A DNA stretch of 17,800 nucleotides from Parcubacteria group bacterium GW2011_GWB1_44_7 (GTDB taxonomy: Bacteria > Patescibacteria > Paceibacteria > UBA9973 > DSPV01), in contig LCJJ01000012.1 of NCBI GenBank assembly GCA_000999175.1, forward strand, positions 1 through 17,800. The letters are read 5' to 3'. Every line of letters starts with the position of its first letter. Within the stretch, counting starts at the first letter, position 1. Position numbers and translations under genes: made by a program. Below the pieces are notes generated by a model. It did not search any database. It was given only the letters and a program-made list of their open reading frames with translations, and was not told where the DNA came from. Below are positions 804-17,487 of this stretch, piece by piece.

Positions 804-874
804 TCGGGGTGCCGAGAATTGAACTCGGGCCTCACGTACCCAAAACGTGCATACTACCTCTATACTACACCCCG
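804..874 (-). tRNA. tRNA-Pro (anticodon TGG)
   Basis: The minus strand folds as a full cloverleaf: acceptor CGGGGTG (868-874) with CACCCCG (805-811), D-arm GTAT/GTAT with a short loop, anticodon stem CACGT/ACGTG around loop TTTGGGT (anticodon TGG, reading CCA), and T-arm CCGAG-TTCAATT-CTCGG. The first pair C1-G72 is usual for bacterial tRNA-Pro. The discriminator base is A and no CCA end is encoded, so maturation depends on the CCA-adding enzyme (cca nearby). Its 5' end overlaps the stop codon and last codons of yraN by 10 bp on the same strand. Confidence 0.95.
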
Positions 875-1248
875 ATTATTATGTTTTCCAACATATTTAC
901 TTTTGCTGTTCGGTTTGTTTTGTCAAGAATAACAGTAATAATGTCCGTTTGCCAATCTGTTTCATATGAAACGCGCTTTTGGGCCATATAAATCTGGATG
1001 GCTCTTGCTATCCGCTTTAATTTTCTAGGGCTAACATTTTCTTCAGGTCTATAAAAGTTTTCACATGAAACAGTTTTAACCTCAATAAAATGAATTTTAC
1101 CCCTATTTTTCGCCACAATGTCTAATTCACCGCATTTTTGGGTAAAATTTCGAGTAATAATTTCATAACCATGTTTTATGAGAAATTTTACAGCAATATC
1201 TTCACCTAATTTACCAATTTTTTGGTTTTCTGAAGTAAATTTCTTCAT
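865..1248 (-). CDS. yraN: YraN family protein (UPF0102), putative nuclease-fold protein
   Basis: A 127-residue protein with the YraN pattern: KxGxxGEDIAVKFL near the N-terminus, then RNFTQKCGELDIVAK and IHFIEVKTV. E41, D43, E56 and K58 form the D/E...ExK core of a restriction-endonuclease-like fold (the T5 exonuclease/Holliday-resolvase type of PD-(D/E)xK). The biochemical role of YraN is still poorly defined; it is often found beside rnhB or DNA-processing genes. I chose the ATG at 1248; a TTG at 1266 would add six residues. The start lies immediately next to a TTTTCTATAGGACA repeat, and the region upstream carries two DnaA boxes, so expression may respond to whatever binds there. The stop codon lies inside the 5' end of tRNA-Pro. 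Two parS-like palindromes sit within the coding sequence. Confidence 0.88.
   Translation of the reverse strand: MKKFTSENQKIGKLGEDIAVKFLIKHGYEIITRNFTQKCGELDIVAKNRGKIHFIEVKTVSCENFYRPEENVSPRKLKRIARAIQIYMAQKRVSYETDWQTDIITVILDKTNRTAKVNMLENIIIGV
958..973. promoter_or_regulatory. parS-like site B
   Basis: TGTTTCATATGAAACG contains the perfect 14-bp palindrome GTTTCATATGAAAC (959-972) and matches the parS consensus TGTTTCACGTGAAACA at 13 of 16 positions. It is inside yraN, as parS sites often lie inside genes. The role is inferred. Confidence 0.35.
1057..1072. promoter_or_regulatory. parS-like site C
   Basis: GTTTTCACATGAAACA matches the parS consensus at 13 of 16 positions and shares CACATGAAACA with site A read on the minus strand. 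It lies inside yraN. The role is inferred. Confidence 0.3.
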
Positions 1249-1378
1249 TTTTCTATAGGACAACACTGTCCTTTATATGTCCTTTATCCACAAATCCCCA
1301 AACTTATCCACAGATTTTAAGAAAAAATCACGATTTCAAGCCATTTTCTATAGGACATTTTTTATTTTCTATAGGACA
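1249..1378. promoter_or_regulatory. Cluster 1: two DnaA boxes plus TTTTCTATAGGACA repeats
   Basis: This AT-rich intergenic stretch between yraN and tRNA-Gly holds two perfect TTATCCACA boxes in the same orientation (1284-1292 and 1304-1312, 20 bp apart, about two helical turns). It also holds three exact copies of TTTTCTATAGGACA (1249-1262, 1344-1357/8, 1365-1378) and two related TGTCCTTTAT units (1267-1277, 1279-1288). GGACA-ACAC-TGTCC (1258-1271) forms a perfect dyad. TTATCCACA is the E. coli consensus DnaA box. Whether this is an origin element or a DnaA-controlled promoter for yraN is not decided by the sequence. A -10-like TATAAA read on the minus strand (within 1270-1280) lies upstream of yraN. 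Confidence 0.6.
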
Positions 1379-1403: not shown

Positions 1404-1474
1404 TGCGGGTAGGGAGAATCGAACTCCCGACATAACATTGGCAATGTTACGTTTTACCACTAAACTACACCCGC
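1404..1474 (-). tRNA. tRNA-Gly (anticodon GCC)
   Basis: The minus strand gives acceptor GCGGGTG (1468-1474) with TACCCGC (1405-1411), anticodon stem TAACA/TGTTA around loop TTGCCAA (anticodon GCC, reading GGC), and T-arm GGGAG-TTCGATT-CTCCC. The discriminator is A and no CCA is encoded. The gene is 29 bp from the repeat/DnaA-box cluster. Confidence 0.95.
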
Positions 1475-1550
1475 GTCAAGAGCTGTTAAATATAAACTTC
1501 CTTCCAAAATTAAATGATACCACAATTATTTATTTTTTCAAAAATCCAGT

Positions 1551-1622
1551 CGCCCTCGGCAGGATTCGAACCCACAATAACTGCTTCGAAGGCAGTTGTG
1601 ATATCCATTTCACTACGAGGGC
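1551..1622 (-). tRNA. tRNA-Arg (anticodon TCG)
   Basis: The minus strand gives acceptor GCCCTCG (1616-1622) with CGAGGGC (1552-1558), anticodon stem ACTGC/GCAGT around loop CTTCGAA (anticodon TCG, reading CGA), and T-arm GTGGG-TTCGAAT-CCTGC with two wobble pairs. The discriminator is G and no CCA is encoded. It is divergent from cca, 57 bp away. Confidence 0.95.
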
Positions 1623-1643
1623 ACCAAACAATCATACGTCAAA

Positions 1644-1679: not shown

Positions 1680-3200
1680 ATGAAAAATTCAACTGAAAAA
1701 AGAATTTTTTCTATACCAAAAGAAATTATCGCTGTAGCTAAAACCCTTGAAAAATCTGGTTTTGAAGCTTATTTAATCGGCGGTTGCGTGCGAGATTTAT
1801 TACTTGATAAAAAGCCGAAAGATTGGGATTTTACAACCAATGCCACGCCGGAGGAAATAATGAAAATCTTTCCCAATACTTTTTACGAAAATGAATACGG
1901 TACGGTTGGCGTGGTCAATGAAAATGTTTCAGATACGCCTTTGGACGAAACGTTTAAAGTTGTGGAAGTTACTCCTTATCGCCTGGAAGCAAAATATTCT
2001 AATAAGCGTCATCCTGATATTGTCACTTTCGGCAAAAAATTAGACGATGACCTCAAACGGCGCGATTTCACCATGAATGCGATTGCTTTGAAAATTGAAA
2101 AAGAATTGAGTTCCGGTTGTGAAGTTTTAGTAGTTGACCTTTTTGGTGGCCAAAAAGATTTAAAAGCGGGAATTATTCGGGCCGTAGGGGAGCCGGCGGC
2201 GCGTTTTGCCGAAGATGCTTTGCGAATTTTACGGGCTATTCGTTTGTCTGCCGAATTGGATTTTACCATTGAAGAAAAAACTGCCGAGGCAATAAAAGAA
2301 AACGCTTGCCATTTGGAAAATATTTCCGCCGAACGGATTCGCGATGAATTTTCCAGAATTTTACTTTCCAATAATCCCCAAAAATCCCTTATTTTAAGCC
2401 ACAATTTAGGTGTCTTAACTTTTGTTTTGCCGGAATTGGAAAAAGGGATTGGCGTCAAACAGAACAGCGCCCACGCTTATGATGTTTGGGAACATTCTTT
2501 GCGAACACTTCAGCATGCCGCCAAAAGAAACTTTGTTTTTGAAGTTAGATTGGCTGCCTTACTTCATGATTTGGGTAAAATACCGACCCGGCGCTGGAGC
2601 GAGGAAAAAAAGGATTGGACTTTTTACGGTCATGATGTCATCGGTGCCAAAATCGCGGAAAAAGTTATCTCACGTCTTAAATTTCCTAAAAAAACTACTG
2701 ATGACGCGGTAAAGTTGGTGCGCTGGCATATGTTTTTTTCCGATACCGAAATAATCACTTTGTCTTCGGTGCGGCGGATGATTAGAAATGTCGGCCAGGA
2801 AAACATTTGGCGTTTAATGGAAGTTCGGACTTGCGATAGAATTGGTACCGGCCGGCCCAAGGAAAGCCCTTATCGCTTGCGCAAGTACCAAGCGATGGTG
2901 GAAGAGGCCTCAAGAGACCCGATTTCCGTCGGCATGCTGAAGATAAACGGTGAGAAAATTATGACGTTTACCGGTTTAGTGCCAGGACCAAAAATTGGCT
3001 TTATTTTACACGCTTTGTTGGAAGAGGTATTGGAAGAGCCAAAGTTAAATACGATTGATTATTTGGAAAAAAGGGTAGGGGAGTTGGCGAAACTTTCCGA
3101 TTATGAATTAAAAAAAGTGGGACAATCAGCGAAAGATAAAAAAACCAAAGAAGAAGAAAAAATCATCAAAGAAATCCGAGACAAGTATTGGGTGAAATAA
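1680..3200 (+). CDS. cca: CCA-adding enzyme / tRNA nucleotidyltransferase with HD domain
   Basis: A 506-residue class II nucleotidyltransferase. The head has GGCVRDLLLDKKPKDWDFTT with the metal-binding pair D48/D50. RRDFTMNAIAL at 127-137 is the second conserved motif, and RFAEDALRILRAIRL (175-189) is the conserved neck helix that opens the RNA-binding part. An HD domain follows (H272, H296-D297, H318-D319), as in bacterial Cca/poly(A) polymerase-related enzymes. Known role: adding or repairing the 3' CCA of tRNAs; the three neighbouring tRNAs lack encoded CCA, so the enzyme is needed here. The C-terminal 50 residues are Lys/Glu-rich. Poly(A) polymerase activity is a possible alternative, since the two share this fold. 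The likely promoter leaves no room for a ribosome binding site. Confidence 0.93.
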   Translation: MKNSTEKRIFSIPKEIIAVAKTLEKSGFEAYLIGGCVRDLLLDKKPKDWDFTTNATPEEIMKIFPNTFYENEYGTVGVVNENVSDTPLDETFKVVEVTPYRLEAKYSNKRHPDIVTFGKKLDDDLKRRDFTMNAIALKIEKELSSGCEVLVVDLFGGQKDLKAGIIRAVGEPAARFAEDALRILRAIRLSAELDFTIEEKTAEAIKENACHLENISAERIRDEFSRILLSNNPQKSLILSHNLGVLTFVLPELEKGIGVKQNSAHAYDVWEHSLRTLQHAAKRNFVFEVRLAALLHDLGKIPTRRWSEEKKDWTFYGHDVIGAKIAEKVISRLKFPKKTTDDAVKLVRWHMFFSDTEIITLSSVRRMIRNVGQENIWRLMEVRTCDRIGTGRPKESPYRLRKYQAMVEEASRDPISVGMLKINGEKIMTFTGLVPGPKIGFILHALLEEVLEEPKLNTIDYLEKRVGELAKLSDYELKKVGQSAKDKKTKEEEKIIKEIRDKYWVK

Positions 3201-3244
3201 AAAAAACCGCCGTTGTTTGGAAGTTTTTCCTTACATCGGCGGTT
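3197..3244 (-). terminator. Intrinsic terminator (minus strand)
   Basis: AACCGCCG (3205-3212) and CGGCGGTT (3237-3244) form an 8-bp GC-rich stem. The inner GGAA/TTCC pairing shortens the loop. On the minus strand the stem runs into eight Ts. The plus strand has no T-run, so it does not look like the cca terminator. A second AACCGCCG at 3259-3266 can compete for the same CGGCGGTT. Confidence 0.7.
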
Positions 3245-3450
3245 AAATGGGTTGAAGGAACCGCCGAGATTGTTTCGTTTGGTTAAGTATCGTGATTTAA
3301 AAGTGGTTTTTAAGTGGTTGAGGATACTTATGCTCCTTACGAAATTTTTCAAGTTGGTCCTTCAAAAGAGAATTGCGCAGCTTCTCTTTTAATGAACTTA
3401 TGTGCCTTTTTGGCTAGAGAGCTAACCTTTCAAAGCACCTGACAACATTT
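3197..3450 (-). ncRNA. Candidate structured non-coding RNA, family not recognised
   Basis: No convincing gene covers the 350 bp between cca and xth. Read on the minus strand it is a chain of hairpins. GGUUAG-CUCU-CUAGCC (3427-3412) pairs fully only on this strand, through a G-U pair. AAAAGAGAA/TTCTCTTTT (3364-3390) is a perfect 9-bp stem. AAGTATC/GATACTT (3285-3291 with 3323-3329) encloses TTAAAA/TTTTAA. The end is the intrinsic terminator at 3197-3244. The repeat/DnaA-box cluster at 3457-3563 lies just upstream and could carry its promoter. I looked for tmRNA, RNase P, SRP and riboswitch hallmarks and found none. The alternative is a long structured 3' UTR of xth. Confidence 0.4.
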
Positions 3451-3456
3451 TATTAC

Positions 3457-3563
3457 TTCTATAGGACATGTAAAGGACAAAATGTGGATAACTTGTCCTA
3501 TAGAAAATTTTTGTCCGATAGAGTGTCCTATAGAATGTCCTTTATAAAAAACCCTTATAGGAC
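3457..3563. promoter_or_regulatory. Cluster 2: DnaA box plus TTCTATAGGACA repeats
   Basis: Units TTCTATAGGACA (3457-3468), TAAAGGACA (3471-3479), TGTCCTATAGAAAA (3494-3507), TGTCCGATAGA (3512-3522), TGTCCTATAGAA (3524-3535) and TGTCCTTTATA (3536-3546), plus CTTATAGGAC (3554-3563) across the xth stop, sit in both orientations around a perfect inverted DnaA box TGTGGATAA (3483-3491). Unit composition is the same as in the cluster at 1249-1378, about 2.1 kb away. It lies upstream of the candidate ncRNA and downstream of xth. Confidence 0.6.
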
Positions 3564-4331
3564 TTCAAGAAAAATGGGACAGTGGTCAGAACCAAAGACA
3601 TTTTCTAGAATTTCTGACTTATTGACTTTTGGTAAAAATTCTTTTGTAACAAAAAAATAGTCTATCCGCCAGCCGACATTTCGGTCGCGAGCAAAAGTTT
3701 TCATGTCCCAATAAGTATAAACGCCTTTTTTATTCGGATGGAAATAACGGAAAGTGTCAATGTAATTTTTTTTCTCTACTTCGTCCAACCATTTCCGTTC
3801 AATTGGCAAGAAACCGGTATTGTTTTCGTTTTCTTTTGGTCGGGCTAAATCAATTTCTTGATGCGCCGTGTTCACATCGCCGCAAAAAATAATATTAGGT
3901 TCACCGACCGGCGAATTTCTGATTTTTTCAATATATTTCAGAAAAGCATCGTAATAGCGTAATTTGAAAGCTAGTCGTTCCGGACCACTGCCGCCGTTAG
4001 GAAAATAAACATTAAAAAGCGTGAAATTACGGAAAAACAAGCCCAAAAAGCGACCCTCTTGGTCTAATTCTTCAATTCCCAAGCCGTATTCCACTTTTTC
4101 CGGCTTAATTTTGGTGTAAACGGCAACACCACTGTAGCCACTTTTTGCTTTGGAGTGGTCAAAATAGGTGTGGTAACCGGAAGGCTGACGAACTCCAGCG
4201 GGTAATTGGTCGGGATGGGCTTTGGTCTCCTGCAAGCAAAAAATATCAGCGCCAGAATTCAAAAGCCAATCAAACCCACCCTTTTTCACATTCGCCCGCA
4301 AGCCATTCACATTCCAAGATATGATTTTCAT
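3555..4331 (-). CDS. xth: Exodeoxyribonuclease III (AP endonuclease)
   Basis: A 258-residue enzyme of the exonuclease III/APE1 family, which incises DNA 5' to abasic sites and trims 3' ends in base excision repair. Visible active-site residues in order: N7 in SWNVNGLRA, E35 in LQETKA, Y109 in NVYFPNG, D152 and N154 in GDVNTAH, D224 in WRIDYFF, and D249-H250 at the end of GSDHCP. Length is normal and no piece is missing. The ATG at 4331 is preceded by TGATAAAAT and six bases, giving a leaderless-type start. It is divergent from the beta-helix gene. Its stop codon lies inside the last TATAGGAC unit of the repeat cluster at 3457-3563. Confidence 0.95.
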   Translation of the reverse strand: MKIISWNVNGLRANVKKGGFDWLLNSGADIFCLQETKAHPDQLPAGVRQPSGYHTYFDHSKAKSGYSGVAVYTKIKPEKVEYGLGIEELDQEGRFLGLFFRNFTLFNVYFPNGGSGPERLAFKLRYYDAFLKYIEKIRNSPVGEPNIIFCGDVNTAHQEIDLARPKENENNTGFLPIERKWLDEVEKKNYIDTFRYFHPNKKGVYTYWDMKTFARDRNVGWRIDYFFVTKEFLPKVNKSEILENVFGSDHCPIFLEVL

Positions 4332-4346
4332 AATAGCATTTTATCA
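4332..4346 (-). promoter_or_regulatory. -10 element of xth, leaderless geometry
   Basis: On the minus strand TGATAAAAT (4346-4338) is an extended -10 box, followed by GCTATT and the ATG. The same TGATAnAAT-N6-ATG layout is found at xer and at the response regulator. Confidence 0.5.
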
Positions 4347-4365
4347 TTTTTTGTTTTTTCTGTGC

Positions 4366-4376
4366 TATGGTAAAAT
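4366..4376 (+). promoter_or_regulatory. -10 region of the beta-helix gene
   Basis: TGCTATGGTAAAAT offers either TATGGT with a TG extension (4366-4371) or TAAAAT (4371-4376) as the -10. The ATG at 4384 is 12 or 7 bases further on. No clear -35 box is seen, and no Shine-Dalgarno sequence fits. Confidence 0.35.
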
Positions 4377-4383
4377 TAATGCA

Positions 4384-7300
4384 ATGAAAATAACGAAACT
4401 TCTTATTTTTGGGATTTTGTTCGCGCTCTTTTTATTTATCGGCGCCGAAGACGCTTTCGCGGCGAATTGGTATGTCTCTCGGAACGGTTCCAATGCCGAC
4501 GGAAGAAGTTGGACAACGGCATGGAATGAAATGGATCGGATCAACTGGAGCAGTATTCAACCCGGCGATATCATTTATTTAGATGGTGGAACTAGCAGTA
4601 TGACTTATAGAGTTCCACTGACTATCGAGAAGGCAGGTTCGGCAGGAAACCCGATTACTATTCGTCCTGCCGCGGCCATGCCAAATGCGGGTTCGCTACA
4701 TTCTGGACTCGTTATTATTGACGCTGGAGGTTCTCCGAATAACGGCATCAATCTCGCGAATTATGTCACCATTGATGGTAATGTTAATAACCAAAGAAAA
4801 ATTCGTCTGCAAAACGGCCGTTTTGGCGTTAGTGGAACCGGGCTTACCGGCGTTACGGTTTCATTTATTCTATTCAATGGTTTTGATGCTGCAATGTCCA
4901 TTTCTAATATGCCACCCACAGGAACACTTTTGTTTGAATACAATTACGCTGAAAATATCGAAGGCTCGTCTCTCGCGGTTGGTGGTGTAGGAGCGCCACT
5001 CGGAAGCCGAATTATTCGTCATAACTATTTGGAAGCGAGAAGATATGATGGAATAGCTGTTGATTCTGGTTTTGATATCTATGGAAATTATCTCAAAAAG
5101 ACGTTCGCAGAAACTTCAACTCACCCAGACGGCATTGTGACACAAGGAGGTAACAATCGAATTCACCATAACTTCATACAAGACTTCAATCAGTATATTT
5201 ACCTCAATGCAATTCTTGAAGCGGGAGACAATCAAGAAATTTGGTCTAATGTTATATGGCAGTCGCCAAATTATAGTATGAGCTATGGACCCGGGATCAA
5301 TGTTCATCCCGAATGGAAAACCATCAGCAATGTTAAAATTTACAACAACGTTTTCCGCGGGCACGGGATCAAATTTGCTGGTGGAAACAGTATTAGTAAT
5401 ATTACGATTAGGAACAACATTGCTGCATCCATAACAACTGAAAGCGCGCAGATCAGCGGTTTTAATAGTGATTATAATTTGTTTGAACCAGGCGCATTCT
5501 TTTGGTGGAGCGGGTACACCAACTCTTTTGCAACCTGGAAGTCTCAGAGTGGCGGAGATGCACACAGTATTCAAGTTGAGCCACTTTATTTTGATGCCTT
5601 AAGTGGAAAACTCTGGGTGACAGCAAATTCACAGGCTATCGATAAAGGTTTCACTTTGGGCACTGCTTATCAAGACGCTTTATCTCCCAATACAACCTGG
5701 CCGGATCCTGGATTTGCGGTTCGCAACGGCGCCTGGGACATCGGCGCGTATGAATACAGTGGTTCAGGCGGCGGAACCCCTACGCCAACCACCGGCCAAT
5801 GCGGAACAACACTTAACGCTTGCGTTGTCGGCGCGTTAGATGATACGGCGGATTCTGCGACTCAATATCTCTGGCAATGTCTCGGTTCAAACGGCGGCAG
5901 AGACGCATCGTGCAATCTTCCCAGGTCAACAAGCGGGGGAGGAGATATATATTATGTCGCCACCAATGGAAGCGACACTAATACCGGAACACTGGCCATG
6001 CCGTTTAGAACAATCCGCAAAGGAATGAGTTACCTGCGTTCAGGGGATACGTTATACATCCGCGGTGGGGAGTATGATGAGAAGTTTGAAAATGACCTGC
6101 CGTTTGACAATTCAGGCGCTACTTCCTGGAGCCAGGCGATTACTATTGCTGCTTACAATAGCGAACAGGTCCTTCTCAAGCCATCTTCGGGATATCGGGT
6201 TTTTACTTTTGAATCTCTCAGATATGCCTACCTTATTCTTGACGGTTTGATCATAGACGCGGCTAATATCAGCGTTGATGCTGTCAAGATAAGTTATGGC
6301 AGTGACCCTCTGCAATCTTCGCATCACATTTGGTTCAAGAATTGTGTTGTCAAGAATTCACCCGGCCAGGGAATTCTAACTACGGGAAACGCTGACTGGA
6401 ATCGATTCACTAATTGCGAAATCTACAATAATGGAACTGATGATTTTGATCACGGTTTCTACATTTCCACCGACAACAATATTATCGAGCAAAGTCGGAT
6501 TCATGATAACACTGGTTGGGGCGTGCAGGTGTATGATGGGGCCGGGACGATTTCTAACAACATCGTTCGATATAGTCTAGTATATGACAATACAAATAGT
6601 GGAAGGGGGGCCGGCATCGGTTTATACTCGGGTCCAGGACATAAGGCTTACGGTAATATTGTTTGGGGAAACAAATATGGCATTTCGCTTAATTACGGAG
6701 CCAGTGGAGCGGAGGTCTCTAATAATACTTTGTATTTAAATGGTGGAAACCCGTTGTTCGATAATGGTGTCAATACTACAAAATACAATAATACTTTAAT
6801 CAACCAAGATGTCCCTAACCCAATACCACCTATTCCTGGTGGAGGCGGCGGTGGTGATACCGGAGGGAATCAACCGCCCTCGGTTTCCATCACCTCTCTA
6901 GCCAACAATACGACATTTAGCCTGGGCGTGCCTATTTCCCTTACAGCGACGGCCAGCGATTCCGCTGACAGCATATCCCAAATTGCTTTCTACCGGAATG
7001 GTTCTTTATTTGCCGGCGGCGTTGATACCACTGCTCCTTGGAATTATCAATGGAGCAATGCCAGTGCCGGCACTTATACTATTTATGCCGAAGCTACGGA
7101 TAGCCGAGGAGCGGTTGGCAGGTCTCCCTCAATCACCATAACTGTCGGTTCACCATCTCCCACGCCGTCATCTTGTATTAATCCCTCAAACCCGCCCGCC
7201 GGTAGCGCCGCGCCTTGCCCGGCGCTCTCGCTTTCAAATTACACTCCGCTTTCCACTGACCAATTAACAATCACCGCCACTCCCGCCGGTTCATACAATT

Positions 7301-7569
7301 ACATTTACAAAACTTTTTATATTTCTGAATATCTAAATGGCGCATGGCAGTGGGGTTCTCCTAAAACTTTTTCTTGCTCTCAAGAAGTTAGTGTCTACTG
7401 CACCACTCTCGCTTCTTTTACCATTCCCATTGCCAATCTTCAAACGGCAAGCCCGGGCATTCACTATATTGCTTCCTGGGATTGGAAATGGATTGATTCT
7501 TGTTGGAAAGGTCCAGAAGGAGCTTGCGGAACCGGCAAGTGGCGGGTGCAGAAGTTTGAGATGAAATAG
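4384..7569 (+). CDS. Secreted double beta-helix protein with Ig-like and Cys-rich modules
   Basis: I start at the ATG at 4384 because it begins a clear signal peptide (residues 1-27: basic KITK, hydrophobic core, cleavage near AFA-A); the frame is open further upstream but that overlaps xth. The 1061-residue product reads as modules. Residues 28-460 are a right-handed parallel beta-helix (NWYVSRNGSNADG entry and many N-N-x-I/V turns). Residues 471-514 are a four-Cys module (CGTTLNAC...YLWQC...ASC). Residues 521-810 are a second beta-helix (DIYYVATNGSDTNTGT, as in DUF1565/pectate-lyase-like proteins). A Gly-rich linker follows, then an Ig-like domain at 831-923 (PPSVSITSLANNTTF) and a Cys/Trp-rich end at 930-1061. 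Such helices usually bind or cleave polysaccharides, but I see no lyase motif I would name. No membrane anchor or LPxTG is present. Likely exported and extracellular. Confidence 0.85.
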   Translation: MKITKLLIFGILFALFLFIGAEDAFAANWYVSRNGSNADGRSWTTAWNEMDRINWSSIQPGDIIYLDGGTSSMTYRVPLTIEKAGSAGNPITIRPAAAMPNAGSLHSGLVIIDAGGSPNNGINLANYVTIDGNVNNQRKIRLQNGRFGVSGTGLTGVTVSFILFNGFDAAMSISNMPPTGTLLFEYNYAENIEGSSLAVGGVGAPLGSRIIRHNYLEARRYDGIAVDSGFDIYGNYLKKTFAETSTHPDGIVTQGGNNRIHHNFIQDFNQYIYLNAILEAGDNQEIWSNVIWQSPNYSMSYGPGINVHPEWKTISNVKIYNNVFRGHGIKFAGGNSISNITIRNNIAASITTESAQISGFNSDYNLFEPGAFFWWSGYTNSFATWKSQSGGDAHSIQVEPLYFDALSGKLWVTANSQAIDKGFTLGTAYQDALSPNTTWPDPGFAVRNGAWDIGAYEYSGSGGGTPTPTTGQCGTTLNACVVGALDDTADSATQYLWQCLGSNGGRDASCNLPRSTSGGGDIYYVATNGSDTNTGTLAMPFRTIRKGMSYLRSGDTLYIRGGEYDEKFENDLPFDNSGATSWSQAITIAAYNSEQVLLKPSSGYRVFTFESLRYAYLILDGLIIDAANISVDAVKISYGSDPLQSSHHIWFKNCVVKNSPGQGILTTGNADWNRFTNCEIYNNGTDDFDHGFYISTDNNIIEQSRIHDNTGWGVQVYDGAGTISNNIVRYSLVYDNTNSGRGAGIGLYSGPGHKAYGNIVWGNKYGISLNYGASGAEVSNNTLYLNGGNPLFDNGVNTTKYNNTLINQDVPNPIPPIPGGGGGGDTGGNQPPSVSITSLANNTTFSLGVPISLTATASDSADSISQIAFYRNGSLFAGGVDTTAPWNYQWSNASAGTYTIYAEATDSRGAVGRSPSITITVGSPSPTPSSCINPSNPPAGSAAPCPALSLSNYTPLSTDQLTITATPAGSYNYIYKTFYISEYLNGAWQWGSPKTFSCSQEVSVYCTTLASFTIPIANLQTASPGIHYIASWDWKWIDSCWKGPEGACGTGKWRVQKFEMK

Positions 7570-11738: not shown

Positions 11739-11858
11739 ATGAACACTTTCGGTAAAAAAGCGCGATTCGGTCTTCTGACAATTTTATTTATTGCCAATTT
11801 TTTCATTTGGAGCGCGTTATTGGCCGAAGAACGGGGCGGGGAATTGAAAGTCGATTAA
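11739..11858 (+). pseudogene. Out-of-frame N-terminal piece of the MBL gene
   Basis: ATG at 11739 opens a 39-codon frame with a signal or anchor helix (MNTFGKKARFG, then LLTILFIANFFIWSALLA) and then ERGGELKVD before TAA at 11856-11858. ComEC-type MBL proteins normally have such a hydrophobic N-terminus directly joined to the LRVAFLDIGQGD strand, which here is in another frame. One base lost in the G-rich run GGGGCGGGG (11833-11841) would explain it: adding one G joins the frames as ERGGGIESRLRVAF. Confidence 0.65.
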
Positions 11859-12619
11859 GAGTTGCCTTTTTGGATATTGGTCAAGGCGACGCCATTTACA
11901 TAGAAGCGCCAAACGGCAATCAAATACTTATAGACGGGGGGCCGAATAAAACACTTTTGTCGCAGTTGAGCGAATTAATGCCGGCTTACGATCGCTCCAT
12001 AGACTTGCTTATCGTATCCAATCCCGATAAGGACCATATTGCCGGTTTTATTGAGATTCTTAAATCTTTTTCTGTGGCAGCGGTGATAGAACCCGGAACC
12101 GAGCCGGAGACGGCGGTTTACAAGGAATTTGAAAAATTGGTGGAAACCGAAGGCGCGCAAAAAATTATTGGCCGGCGCGGTCAAATTATTTGGCTTGATA
12201 AAACGCGGGGCGTCTATTTTGTTATTCTTTTCCCGGACCAAGATGTTTCTGCGTGGAAAACCAATGATGGTTCAATTATCGGCAAATTGGTCTACGGCAA
12301 CACTTGCGTCATTTTTTCCGGCGATGCGCCGCAAAACATGGAAAATTACGTTACCGCGCTTGATGGTTCGGCGCTTCATTGCCAGGCGCTTAAAGTTGGG
12401 CATCATGGTTCGCGAACTTCATCGGTGGTCTCTTTTGTCGGCACGGTGGCGCCGGATTACGCGATTATTTCTTCCGGCAAGGACAATAGTTACGGTCACC
12501 CGCACCAAGAAACCTTGGATACTTTAAATCGTTTCGACACCAAAATTCTTAGAACTGATACATTAGGGACAATTGTTATGAGCTCGGACGGTAATTTGGT
12601 TAATTTTCGCACATGGTGA
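11807..12619 (+). CDS. ComEC-type metallo-beta-lactamase domain protein, 5' end frameshifted
   Basis: From the first in-frame TTG this encodes 270 residues of an MBL fold like the C-terminal domain of ComEC/Rec2: FLDIGQGDAIYI (21-32), IDGG (42-45), SNPDKDHIAG (71-80; the DxDH metal motif with the first His replaced by Asn), SGDAP (171-175), KVGHHGSRTSS (196-206) and SSGKDNSYGHPH (222-233). In ComEC this domain is thought to degrade the non-transported DNA strand. The comEC gene at the right end of this window lacks it, so the two may act together; that is inference. The true start is probably the ATG at 11739, which brings a signal helix but is out of frame. Either the gene is damaged, the sequence has an indel error, or a cytoplasmic form is made. 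N72 replacing His may also affect metal binding. Confidence 0.8.
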   Translation: MERVIGRRTGRGIESRLRVAFLDIGQGDAIYIEAPNGNQILIDGGPNKTLLSQLSELMPAYDRSIDLLIVSNPDKDHIAGFIEILKSFSVAAVIEPGTEPETAVYKEFEKLVETEGAQKIIGRRGQIIWLDKTRGVYFVILFPDQDVSAWKTNDGSIIGKLVYGNTCVIFSGDAPQNMENYVTALDGSALHCQALKVGHHGSRTSSVVSFVGTVAPDYAIISSGKDNSYGHPHQETLDTLNRFDTKILRTDTLGTIVMSSDGNLVNFRTW

Positions 12620-15981: not shown

Positions 15982-17487
15982 TTGGCCGGTTTCGCTCTCG
16001 GTGTTTTCTTTCGGTCATTTTACGATTTGGGCGCGAGTTTCTGGAAGTTTTTGATTTTTTTGGCTGGGGCGATTTTGGTCGCAAGCTTAATCTCCAAAAA
16101 GTCCAAAAAGGCGAAACCTTTTTCTGAGAAAAAGGTTTCGCCTTTATTTTTAATTTCGGTGGCTATTTTTGCCAGCGGTTTAGGCGTTTGGCGTTTTGAT
16201 TTTTCCGCTGACAAGGGTATTGTTCGGACATTAGAAGAAAAAATTGGCCAAACAGTTTTGCTTGAAGGAGTAATCAGCGTTGAGCCGGACGAAAGAGAAA
16301 ATAACACTAAACTAACGATTGATATTGAGAAAGACAGGCTTGCTTCGTCGGCGGGTAAAATTTTAGCAACCGTTGCGCTTTATCCGGAATTTTCTTACGG
16401 CGATAAAGTCCAATTGCGCGGCGTTTTAGAAAAGCCAAAGAATTTTGGCGAGCCGAATGATTTGCGGCAATTTGATTACATTTCCTATTTGGCTAAAGAT
16501 GGCATTCGCTATGTGATGTTCCAACCAACAATCACTTTAGTTTCAAGTGGAAACGGCAATTTCGCAAAAAATATTTTGTTCGGTTTTAAAAATTCCTTTT
16601 TGGAAAACATTGGGAAAATTATTCCCGAACCGGCCGTCTCATTATTGGGCGGTTTGGTTGTAGGCGCCAAGCGTTCGCTCGGTGAAGAATGGCTGGAAAA
16701 ATTTAGAACAGTCGGCGTCATTCATATTGTCGTTTTGTCCGGTTATAACATTACCATTGTCGCCGAATTTATTATGCGGCTATTGGCTTTTTTACCTCGT
16801 CTAGTCAGATTATTTTTTGGCGGACTGGCCATTATTCTTTTTGCCGTAATGACCGGCGGTTCGGCAACGGTGGTGCGAGCATCGCTGATGGCAATTCTGG
16901 TAATTGTTGCTCGAGCCACCGGCCGAATTTACGATATCACTCGCGCTTTACTGCTCGCCGGTTTTTTGATGATTCTTCACAATCCCAACATTTTGATTTT
17001 TGACATTTCTTTTCAGCTTTCTTTTCTCTCCACTCTTGGTTTAATTTATTTATCACCGGCGATTGAAAATCGGCTTGGCTTTCTCACCGAAAAATTACAA
17101 CTTCGGCAAATCGTGGCGGCGACTATCGCCACTCAAGTTTTCGTTTTACCGCTTCTGCTTTATCAGATGGGCAAACTTTCTCTCGTTGCCTTGCCCGCCA
17201 ATCTTTTAATTCTGCCAACTATTCCTTGGACAATGTTATTTGGTTTTCTCGCCGGCGCGCTTGGTTTTGTCAGCCAAATTATCGCTTTACCTTTTGCTTT
17301 TATTTCTTATATCTTACTAACTTTCCAGCTCAAAATCGTCGCGTTTTTCGCCGCCTTGCCTTTTGCTTCCATCTCAATTCCATATTTTCCCGCTTGGGCG
17401 CTATTTTTTTGCTACGCCGTTTTCGCTTTACTGAAATTTCTCTCTACGACTTCCCAATTCAAATTAGCAAAAAAATCCTCAATGTAA
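15982..17487 (+). CDS. comEC: ComEC/Rec2 family DNA uptake channel, without MBL domain
   Basis: 501 residues from the first usable TTG. Residues 1-70 hold two or three N-terminal helices (LAGAILVASLIS; VSPLFLISVAIFASGLGVW). Residues 85-185 are the DUF4131-like beta domain with FGEPNDLRQFDYISYLAKDGI. From 200 the Competence domain has GLVVGAKRSL, GVIHIVVLSGYNI (245-257), TGGSATVVRASLMA and FDISFQLSFLSTLGLIYLSP. About nine or ten helices follow. In competent bacteria ComEC carries single-stranded DNA across the inner membrane. It ends without the MBL domain; a separate MBL gene is at 11.8 kb. No good ribosome binding site suits the TTG, and a better ATG at 15952 is cut off by a TAG. A strong 17-bp hairpin lies inside the coding sequence. 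Confidence 0.9.
   Translation: MAGFALGVFFRSFYDLGASFWKFLIFLAGAILVASLISKKSKKAKPFSEKKVSPLFLISVAIFASGLGVWRFDFSADKGIVRTLEEKIGQTVLLEGVISVEPDERENNTKLTIDIEKDRLASSAGKILATVALYPEFSYGDKVQLRGVLEKPKNFGEPNDLRQFDYISYLAKDGIRYVMFQPTITLVSSGNGNFAKNILFGFKNSFLENIGKIIPEPAVSLLGGLVVGAKRSLGEEWLEKFRTVGVIHIVVLSGYNITIVAEFIMRLLAFLPRLVRLFFGGLAIILFAVMTGGSATVVRASLMAILVIVARATGRIYDITRALLLAGFLMILHNPNILIFDISFQLSFLSTLGLIYLSPAIENRLGFLTEKLQLRQIVAATIATQVFVLPLLLYQMGKLSLVALPANLLILPTIPWTMLFGFLAGALGFVSQIIALPFAFISYILLTFQLKIVAFFAALPFASISIPYFPAWALFFCYAVFALLKFLSTTSQFKLAKKSSM
16107..16151 (+). repeat. Perfect 17-bp hairpin plus T-run inside comEC
   Basis: AAAGGCGAAACCTTTTT (16107-16123), loop CTGAG, AAAAAGGTTTCGCCTTT (16129-16145), then ATTTTT. 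It is stronger than the real terminators seen elsewhere in this window. It encodes KAKPFSEKKVSPLF between two membrane helices. It could be a palindromic mobile repeat or an intragenic attenuator. Confidence 0.8.

Follow-up and report, generated by a model that had tools for sequence, protein, structure and literature searches.

The locus described here raises the question of why perfect DnaA boxes and copies of a second, 14-bp repeat surround cca, the gene of a tRNA nucleotidyltransferase, in the DNA of a Parcubacteria group bacterium. The stretch analyzed, referred to as the window, comprises 17,800 nucleotides, and its closest cca relatives, judged from the best 80 of 222 in a cca protein scan, belong to Taylorbacteria and other Parcubacteria, as befits a genome of the Paceibacteria type. 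The order around the two clusters is tRNA-Pro, yraN, cluster 1, tRNA-Gly, tRNA-Arg, cca, cluster 2, and xth. The yraN gene (UPF0102; 865-1266, minus strand; Pfam PF02021, E = 1.3e-23) is located directly left of what we term module 1, and the ATG at 1248 looks likelier as its start than the listed GTG. The genes for tRNA-Gly(gcc) (1404-1474, minus strand), which reads towards module 1, and tRNA-Arg(tcg) (1549-1623, minus strand) are followed by cca (1680-3200, plus strand; Pfam PF01743, E = 9.2e-33), situated between modules 1 and 2, and by an xth-like exonuclease III gene (3555-4331, minus strand; Pfam PF03372, E = 4.4e-28) beyond module 2. Module 1 occupies the region between yraN and tRNA-Gly and module 2 that between cca and xth, and clusters 1 (1249-1378) and 2 (3447-3549) form inward-facing halves of one locus around cca. 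Elsewhere in the window, a 1115-aa open reading frame (ORF; 4222-7569, plus strand) resembled by eye a secreted parallel beta-helix protein, and an ORF at 11807-12619, by eye similar to the metallo-hydrolase part of ComEC, was found 3.4 kb from a ComEC-like competence protein (15982-17487; Pfam PF03772).

The DnaA box TTATCCACA occurs exactly three times in the window, at 1284-1292 and 1304-1312 on the plus strand and at 3483-3491 on the minus strand, compared to a mean of 0.14 in shuffled sequences, none of 200 of which reached three copies. The 14-bp repeat TTTTCTATAGGACA, hereafter the GGACA box, is present in exact form on the plus strand at 1249-1262, 1344-1357, and 1365-1378, the latter two being 21 bp apart, and on the minus strand at 3494. 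When up to three mismatches were allowed, 10 matches were obtained versus 2.25 expected, a number reached in 0 of 200 shuffles, and the core TCTATAGGACA was found in 6 copies versus 0.01 expected, all of them inside clusters 1 and 2. Two variants, TGTCCTTTAT, start at 1267 and 1278, and a GGACA-N4-TGTCC dyad covers 1258-1271. In module 1 (1267-1312, plus strand), the GGACA boxes at 1267 and 1278 run into the two DnaA boxes, between which a weaker box-like ATCCCCA is present. Module 2 (3455-3549, both strands) consists of six GGACA boxes around its DnaA box (3483-3491, minus strand) and a promoter-like pair of elements. The AT content was 71% at 1249-1400 and 57% in the whole window. The sequence-only reading of cluster 1 had listed two perfect DnaA boxes, three exact 14-bp repeats, two variants, and the dyad in an AT-rich setting, and had set three perfect DnaA boxes, all in two clusters, against an expectation of well under one; all of this was borne out.

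A search of related genomes for the same repeat next to DnaA boxes, which had been proposed as a check, recovered it in paired form around cca. The set comprised the 80 best of the 222 cca relatives plus the window, i.e., 81 loci. A plus-strand TTATCCACA within 2,400 bp upstream of cca was present in 46 of the 59 loci with enough flank, and 52 of 76 had a minus-strand copy in the 800 bp that follow the gene; both were found in 32 of 55 loci and neither in 4 of 55, where these loci are related and the counts do not represent independent events. The background expectation for the same loci was 0.016 upstream and 0.007 downstream boxes per locus, and boxes of the opposite orientation numbered 2 upstream and 6 downstream of cca. 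This comparison rules out coincidence. At least one extra near-box (at most one mismatch) was located within 40 bp of the upstream box in 33 of 55 cases and none in the other 22. Of 38 loci in which a regular expression had located module 1, 34 have a yraN-like ORF on its left (counted by eye), and the first tRNA to the right of the upstream box was a minus-strand tRNA-Gly in 40 of 53.

For module 1 a consensus, TGTCYTTTATRCACATATCCACAGAGTTATCCACAGTTTT, was drawn by eye; window positions 1278-1312 match it without mismatch. With at most one mismatch allowed, the pattern was detected once each in 15 of 30 whole genomes, each time no more than about 1 kb from cca, and the reversed control gave no match in those 30 genomes. 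The same pattern recovered 26 of the 81 cca loci; genome G005 fails it by a spacer that is one base longer. No match was obtained in 142 genomes drawn from the class, most of them more distant, with this strict pattern. This speaks against wide conservation of module 1 in its exact form: either only some members of the class have it, or the pattern asks for too close a match. The module 2 pattern was found in 23 of the 30 genomes, in each case 3' of cca, with the orientation reversed in G015; its control matched once. Among 40 class-drawn genomes, chosen as the 30 best cca scores plus 10 with long contigs, 7 contained it, all 7 at cca, and two more matches occurred elsewhere.

Could the paired modules be the chromosomal origin? 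oriC usually, if not universally, adjoins dnaA. In the 14 of 30 genomes that carry both genes on one contig, dnaA is located 25.6-40.9 kb downstream of cca on the same strand, and in none of these contigs does the cca locus adjoin it. A DnaA box cluster, as expected of oriC, is present at cca, but dnaA has one too: at least two near-boxes were detected in the 500 bp 3' of dnaA in 25 of 28 loci and in the 500 bp 5' in 6 of 28 (two partial dnaA matches, L109 and L110, having been dropped), compared to 1.8% of background windows. Perfect DnaA boxes were found in 12 of 30 dnaA loci and are commoner at cca. One report treats dnaA as the origin marker of Patescibacteria (PMC12102498), a second employs cumulative skew for genome checking (PMC7111523), and a third describes short repeats with DnaA-box-like sequences close to an origin defined by skew in Peribacteria (PMC4736985).

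After correction for gene direction, 8 of the 11 informative genomes had their skew switch at dnaA and three (G029, G017, and G013) at cca, "informative" meaning a right-minus-left difference of at least 0.09, a threshold chosen after the values had been seen; for G027, G016, and G008 the corrected skew says nothing. The raw cumulative skew reached its minimum no more than 3 kb from dnaA in 4 of 7 contigs (G029, G024, G030, and G027) and at cca or 12-16 kb upstream of it in the other three (G013, G021, and G017), so that corrected and raw skew conflict for G029 and G021. A changepoint fit gave the sharpest switch at dnaA for G024 and G021 and placed those of G017 and G027 beyond dnaA. The mean skew over up to 81 loci was -0.15/-0.10 for the 2 kb preceding cca and climbed to about 0 to +0.03 past the gene. 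This climb, the corrected switches at cca in three genomes, the three raw minima at or upstream of cca, and the frequency of perfect boxes would fit a bipartite oriC on both sides of cca, for which the GGACA-binding protein would serve as co-factor. We nevertheless regard such an oriC as unlikely in view of the corrected switches at dnaA, sharpest in G024 and G021, and of the near-boxes on the 3' side of that gene. On balance, oriC probably lies at dnaA, with the cca locus as a satellite. The designation of cluster 1 as an origin element is thus probably wrong if oriC is meant, given the distance to dnaA and the corrected skew. Skew placing the origin elsewhere had been named as an argument against that designation, and this largely came about, the corrected skew speaking for dnaA in 8 of 11 genomes; the 3 of 11 at cca and the raw minima, split 4 to 3, do not follow. 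As a separate observation, the C-terminal DNA-binding part of DnaA alone was matched in long ORFs of 933 aa (G001) and 1375 aa (G012) and in smaller ones; such stretches are G001:C34:15898-17381, G001:C10:707-919, and G012:C8:27071-27280.

The GGACA boxes led to a second locus. Their general form in the relatives is TGTCYTTTA, of which TGTCCTATAGAA in the window is a local variant, and copies on the same strand are spaced with peaks at 11-12 and 22 bp and a weaker one near 34 bp. The 600 bp following cca contained 5.9 boxes per kb and the 2,400 bp preceding it 2.1 per kb, versus a background of 0.56 per kb. On the 14 contigs (2.2 Mb), 33 dense clusters were counted, 22 at cca, 7 at a gene for a winged-helix protein, and 4 elsewhere, whereas one random placement of the boxes yielded 7 in all; two contigs, those of G030 and G008, contained no dense cluster. 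A general promoter repeat was rejected as an explanation, since dense clusters exceed chance only at the cca locus and the winged-helix gene. Occurrence at many unrelated promoters, which would have spoken against a specialized element, was accordingly not seen on these contigs.

The winged-helix gene, known here from the genomes of relatives, has GGACA boxes in 25 of 28 promoters, at a density of 10.7 per kb compared to 0.56 per kb in the background; in the remaining 3 of 28 promoters, with gene starts picked by script, no box was found. Two entries, L221, a second entry for the L203 gene, and the masked L197, had been dropped from this count. Boxes over its own promoter make the winged-helix product the probable binder of the GGACA boxes. 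The proposal that the 14-bp repeat is the site of a partner protein is probably right; the DnaA boxes are real, and the repeat beside them is conserved. The family is present in 29 of the 30 genomes and 35 of the 40 class-drawn ones and comprises 2177 relatives among 2878 candidates. GGACA boxes were also found within its coding sequence. In the predicted structure, the winged helix is combined with an N-terminal half that has the fold of the S23/Avd four-helix bundle; the regulator differs from S23-family and Avd bundles by the winged helix, attached via a long linker of low confidence. The S23/Avd-type bundle would point to a pentameric protein carrying five DNA-binding heads, by comparison with chains A-E of 2gsc and 2rld, the model itself being a monomer. 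Searching PDB sequences with an alignment of the regulator family returned no match up to E = 0.1. In G029, G024, and G013 (L112, L143, and L172), the next gene after the regulator encodes, by eye, a repetitive S-layer-type surface protein; its long leader holds a ACTTTGAAAAC-like stretch, with ACTTTGACAAC in G029. In both G029 and G024 this gene is preceded by a perfect DnaA box, and G027 has one after its regulator gene.

Phased repeats, DnaA boxes, and a winged-helix protein that regulates its own gene are the components of iteron replicons and of Vibrio chromosome 2 (RctB). Here, too, phased direct repeats with adjacent DnaA boxes and autoregulatory boxes over the regulator promoter are found, and no more than two target loci exceed chance. 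The locus could be a replication-control circuit of the iteron kind, perhaps a domesticated replicon, in which the winged-helix protein handcuffs the cca locus to its own gene. We consider this very unlikely, because Pfam and NCBIfam searches with three members (sequence profiles only) revealed no Rep family, the family of iteron initiators, up to E = 1, because the model has one winged helix only, carried by a bundle of the S23/Avd type, a fold different from that of iteron regulators, and because the corrected skew is mostly against an origin at cca, the locus probably being none.

Module 2 resembles a promoter. On the minus strand (3447-3474), TTTACA (3469-3474) and TAAAAT (3447-3452) are separated by 16 bp; one GGACA box ends in TTTACA, the -35 element, and a second lies in the spacer. 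TGTCYTTTACR followed at 14-18 bp by TANNNT was present in 41 of 52 loci, among them the window, and in these 41 a conserved DnaA box is located just upstream of the promoter, as in DnaA-regulated promoters. This putative promoter reads into a candidate structured non-coding RNA of about 240 nt (3201-3440, minus strand), proposed from its folding and a hairpin with T-run at its end; the 5' end was placed from the promoter position, and the 3' end adjoins the cca stop codon.

The folding z score was -5.10 for window positions 3201-3437 and averaged -3.8 over 52 loci versus -0.94 for 40 random stretches, the 52-locus value being inflated because the RNA ends were placed at a stable hairpin; the lengths (122-448) were set by a crude rule, and the crude terminator rule was satisfied in 28 of 52 loci. 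Two of four groups were folded as alignments, L016 being left out of the first. Column shuffling gave z scores of -20.8 for six sequences and -8.3 for five; 28 of 118 pairs had changed on both sides in the six-sequence alignment and 21 of 43 in the five-sequence alignment, many of the latter being broken in other sequences. Rfam models gave no match to the window up to E = 1. An ordinary Rfam RNA was rejected, as the RNA region yielded sub-threshold matches and none at the gathering score. These results make the region a candidate for a conserved structured RNA lacking an Rfam counterpart. GTTCTTT or GCTCTTT was found within the RNA in 38 of 52 loci versus 5.4 in shuffles; a boxA reading of this motif is not needed, since its bases pair in a long-range helix in alignment A2.

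We give a probability of about 50% to the reading that cluster 1 is one half of a two-module locus at which DnaA and the winged-helix protein jointly control this RNA. GGACA boxes on and between the -35 and -10 elements of the RNA promoter and over the regulator promoter suggest repression: the winged-helix protein would bind the boxes and block RNA polymerase at both promoters. DnaA boxes directly beside GGACA boxes suggest modulation by DnaA, which, bound at both modules, would make the switch depend on its level or nucleotide state. Expression of the RNA would thereby be tied to the replication cycle, and perhaps that of yraN, too. Module 1 is separated from yraN by 11 bp in the window and from yraN or a preceding small ORF by about 40-350 bp in relatives (estimated by eye), and because of this proximity it may control the yraN unit as well.

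Joint control of the RNA has to be weighed against a DnaA-control site. E. coli datA is likewise a DnaA box cluster off oriC, downstream of a tRNA-Gly operon and with a partner-protein site (PMC10950094); DARS1 and DARS2 are also non-coding DnaA-control sites outside oriC, DARS2 using IHF and Fis. By analogy, the modules and their partner, in place of IHF or Fis, could loop to titrate DnaA or alter its nucleotide state and thereby set the timing of initiation at the origin by dnaA, the RNA being secondary. This is possible, if rather doubtful. The locus lies near yet apart from the probable origin, on a constant side of dnaA in all 14 contigs, its DnaA boxes are paired and inward facing, and module 1 is located downstream of tRNA-Gly as is datA, with boxes within coding sequence suggesting an architectural role. 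The likeness to datA is one of layout; the cca locus differs in its two inverted modules, unrelated partner, promoter-like module, and RNA. From DARS1 and DARS2 it is set apart by its putative promoter and RNA and by its position about 30 kb from dnaA. Speaking against a DnaA-control site are the clear likeness of module 2 to a promoter and the small number of boxes per module for titration, with 22 of 55 upstream boxes having no second near-box within 40 bp. In the open-access literature searched, no earlier description of a paired DnaA/GGACA locus at cca was found. For Paceibacteria there are now a defined locus, a candidate DNA-binding family, a site consensus, and a candidate RNA, each of them accessible to tests in vitro.

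GGACA boxes also occur inside the cca coding sequence, at nucleotides 330-620, with at least one in 50 and at least two in 33 of the 81 loci; the cca of the window has none there. This segment contained 119 sites in 23.6 kb, compared to 78 in 96 kb of the remaining cca sequence. On one strand were 110 of the 119, in two main frames (52 and 50), and they encode YKGH/YKGQ-like protein repeats. They may have a protein-level cause, but selection on DNA is suggested by the occupation of two frames and by the presence of some copies in reverse. Boxes within cca and the regulator gene exceed what simple repression needs and count against the proposed joint control of the RNA, as do the 3 of 28 regulator promoters lacking a box, the two contigs lacking a dense cluster, and the low recovery of module 2 (7 of 40) and module 1 (0 of 142) in class-drawn genomes, even if most of these are more distant and both patterns strict. 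A pentamer would account for boxes both flanking and inside cca, as it could bridge the two modules and the internal boxes into one loop. We put forward, tentatively, that in Paceibacteria a possibly pentameric, autoregulated winged-helix protein and DnaA form a looped complex around cca, at a distance of about 30 kb from the origin, that controls both initiation and the candidate RNA. To our knowledge, replication timing in the reduced genomes of Patescibacteria has been little studied, and such a complex, if real, would be a replication-control system whose parts differ from those of datA, DARS, SeqA, and iteron systems. Three loci had eight boxes at cca nucleotides 330-620, and in L034, L037, and L069 long GGACA arrays within cca constitute a repetitive insertion in the enzyme.
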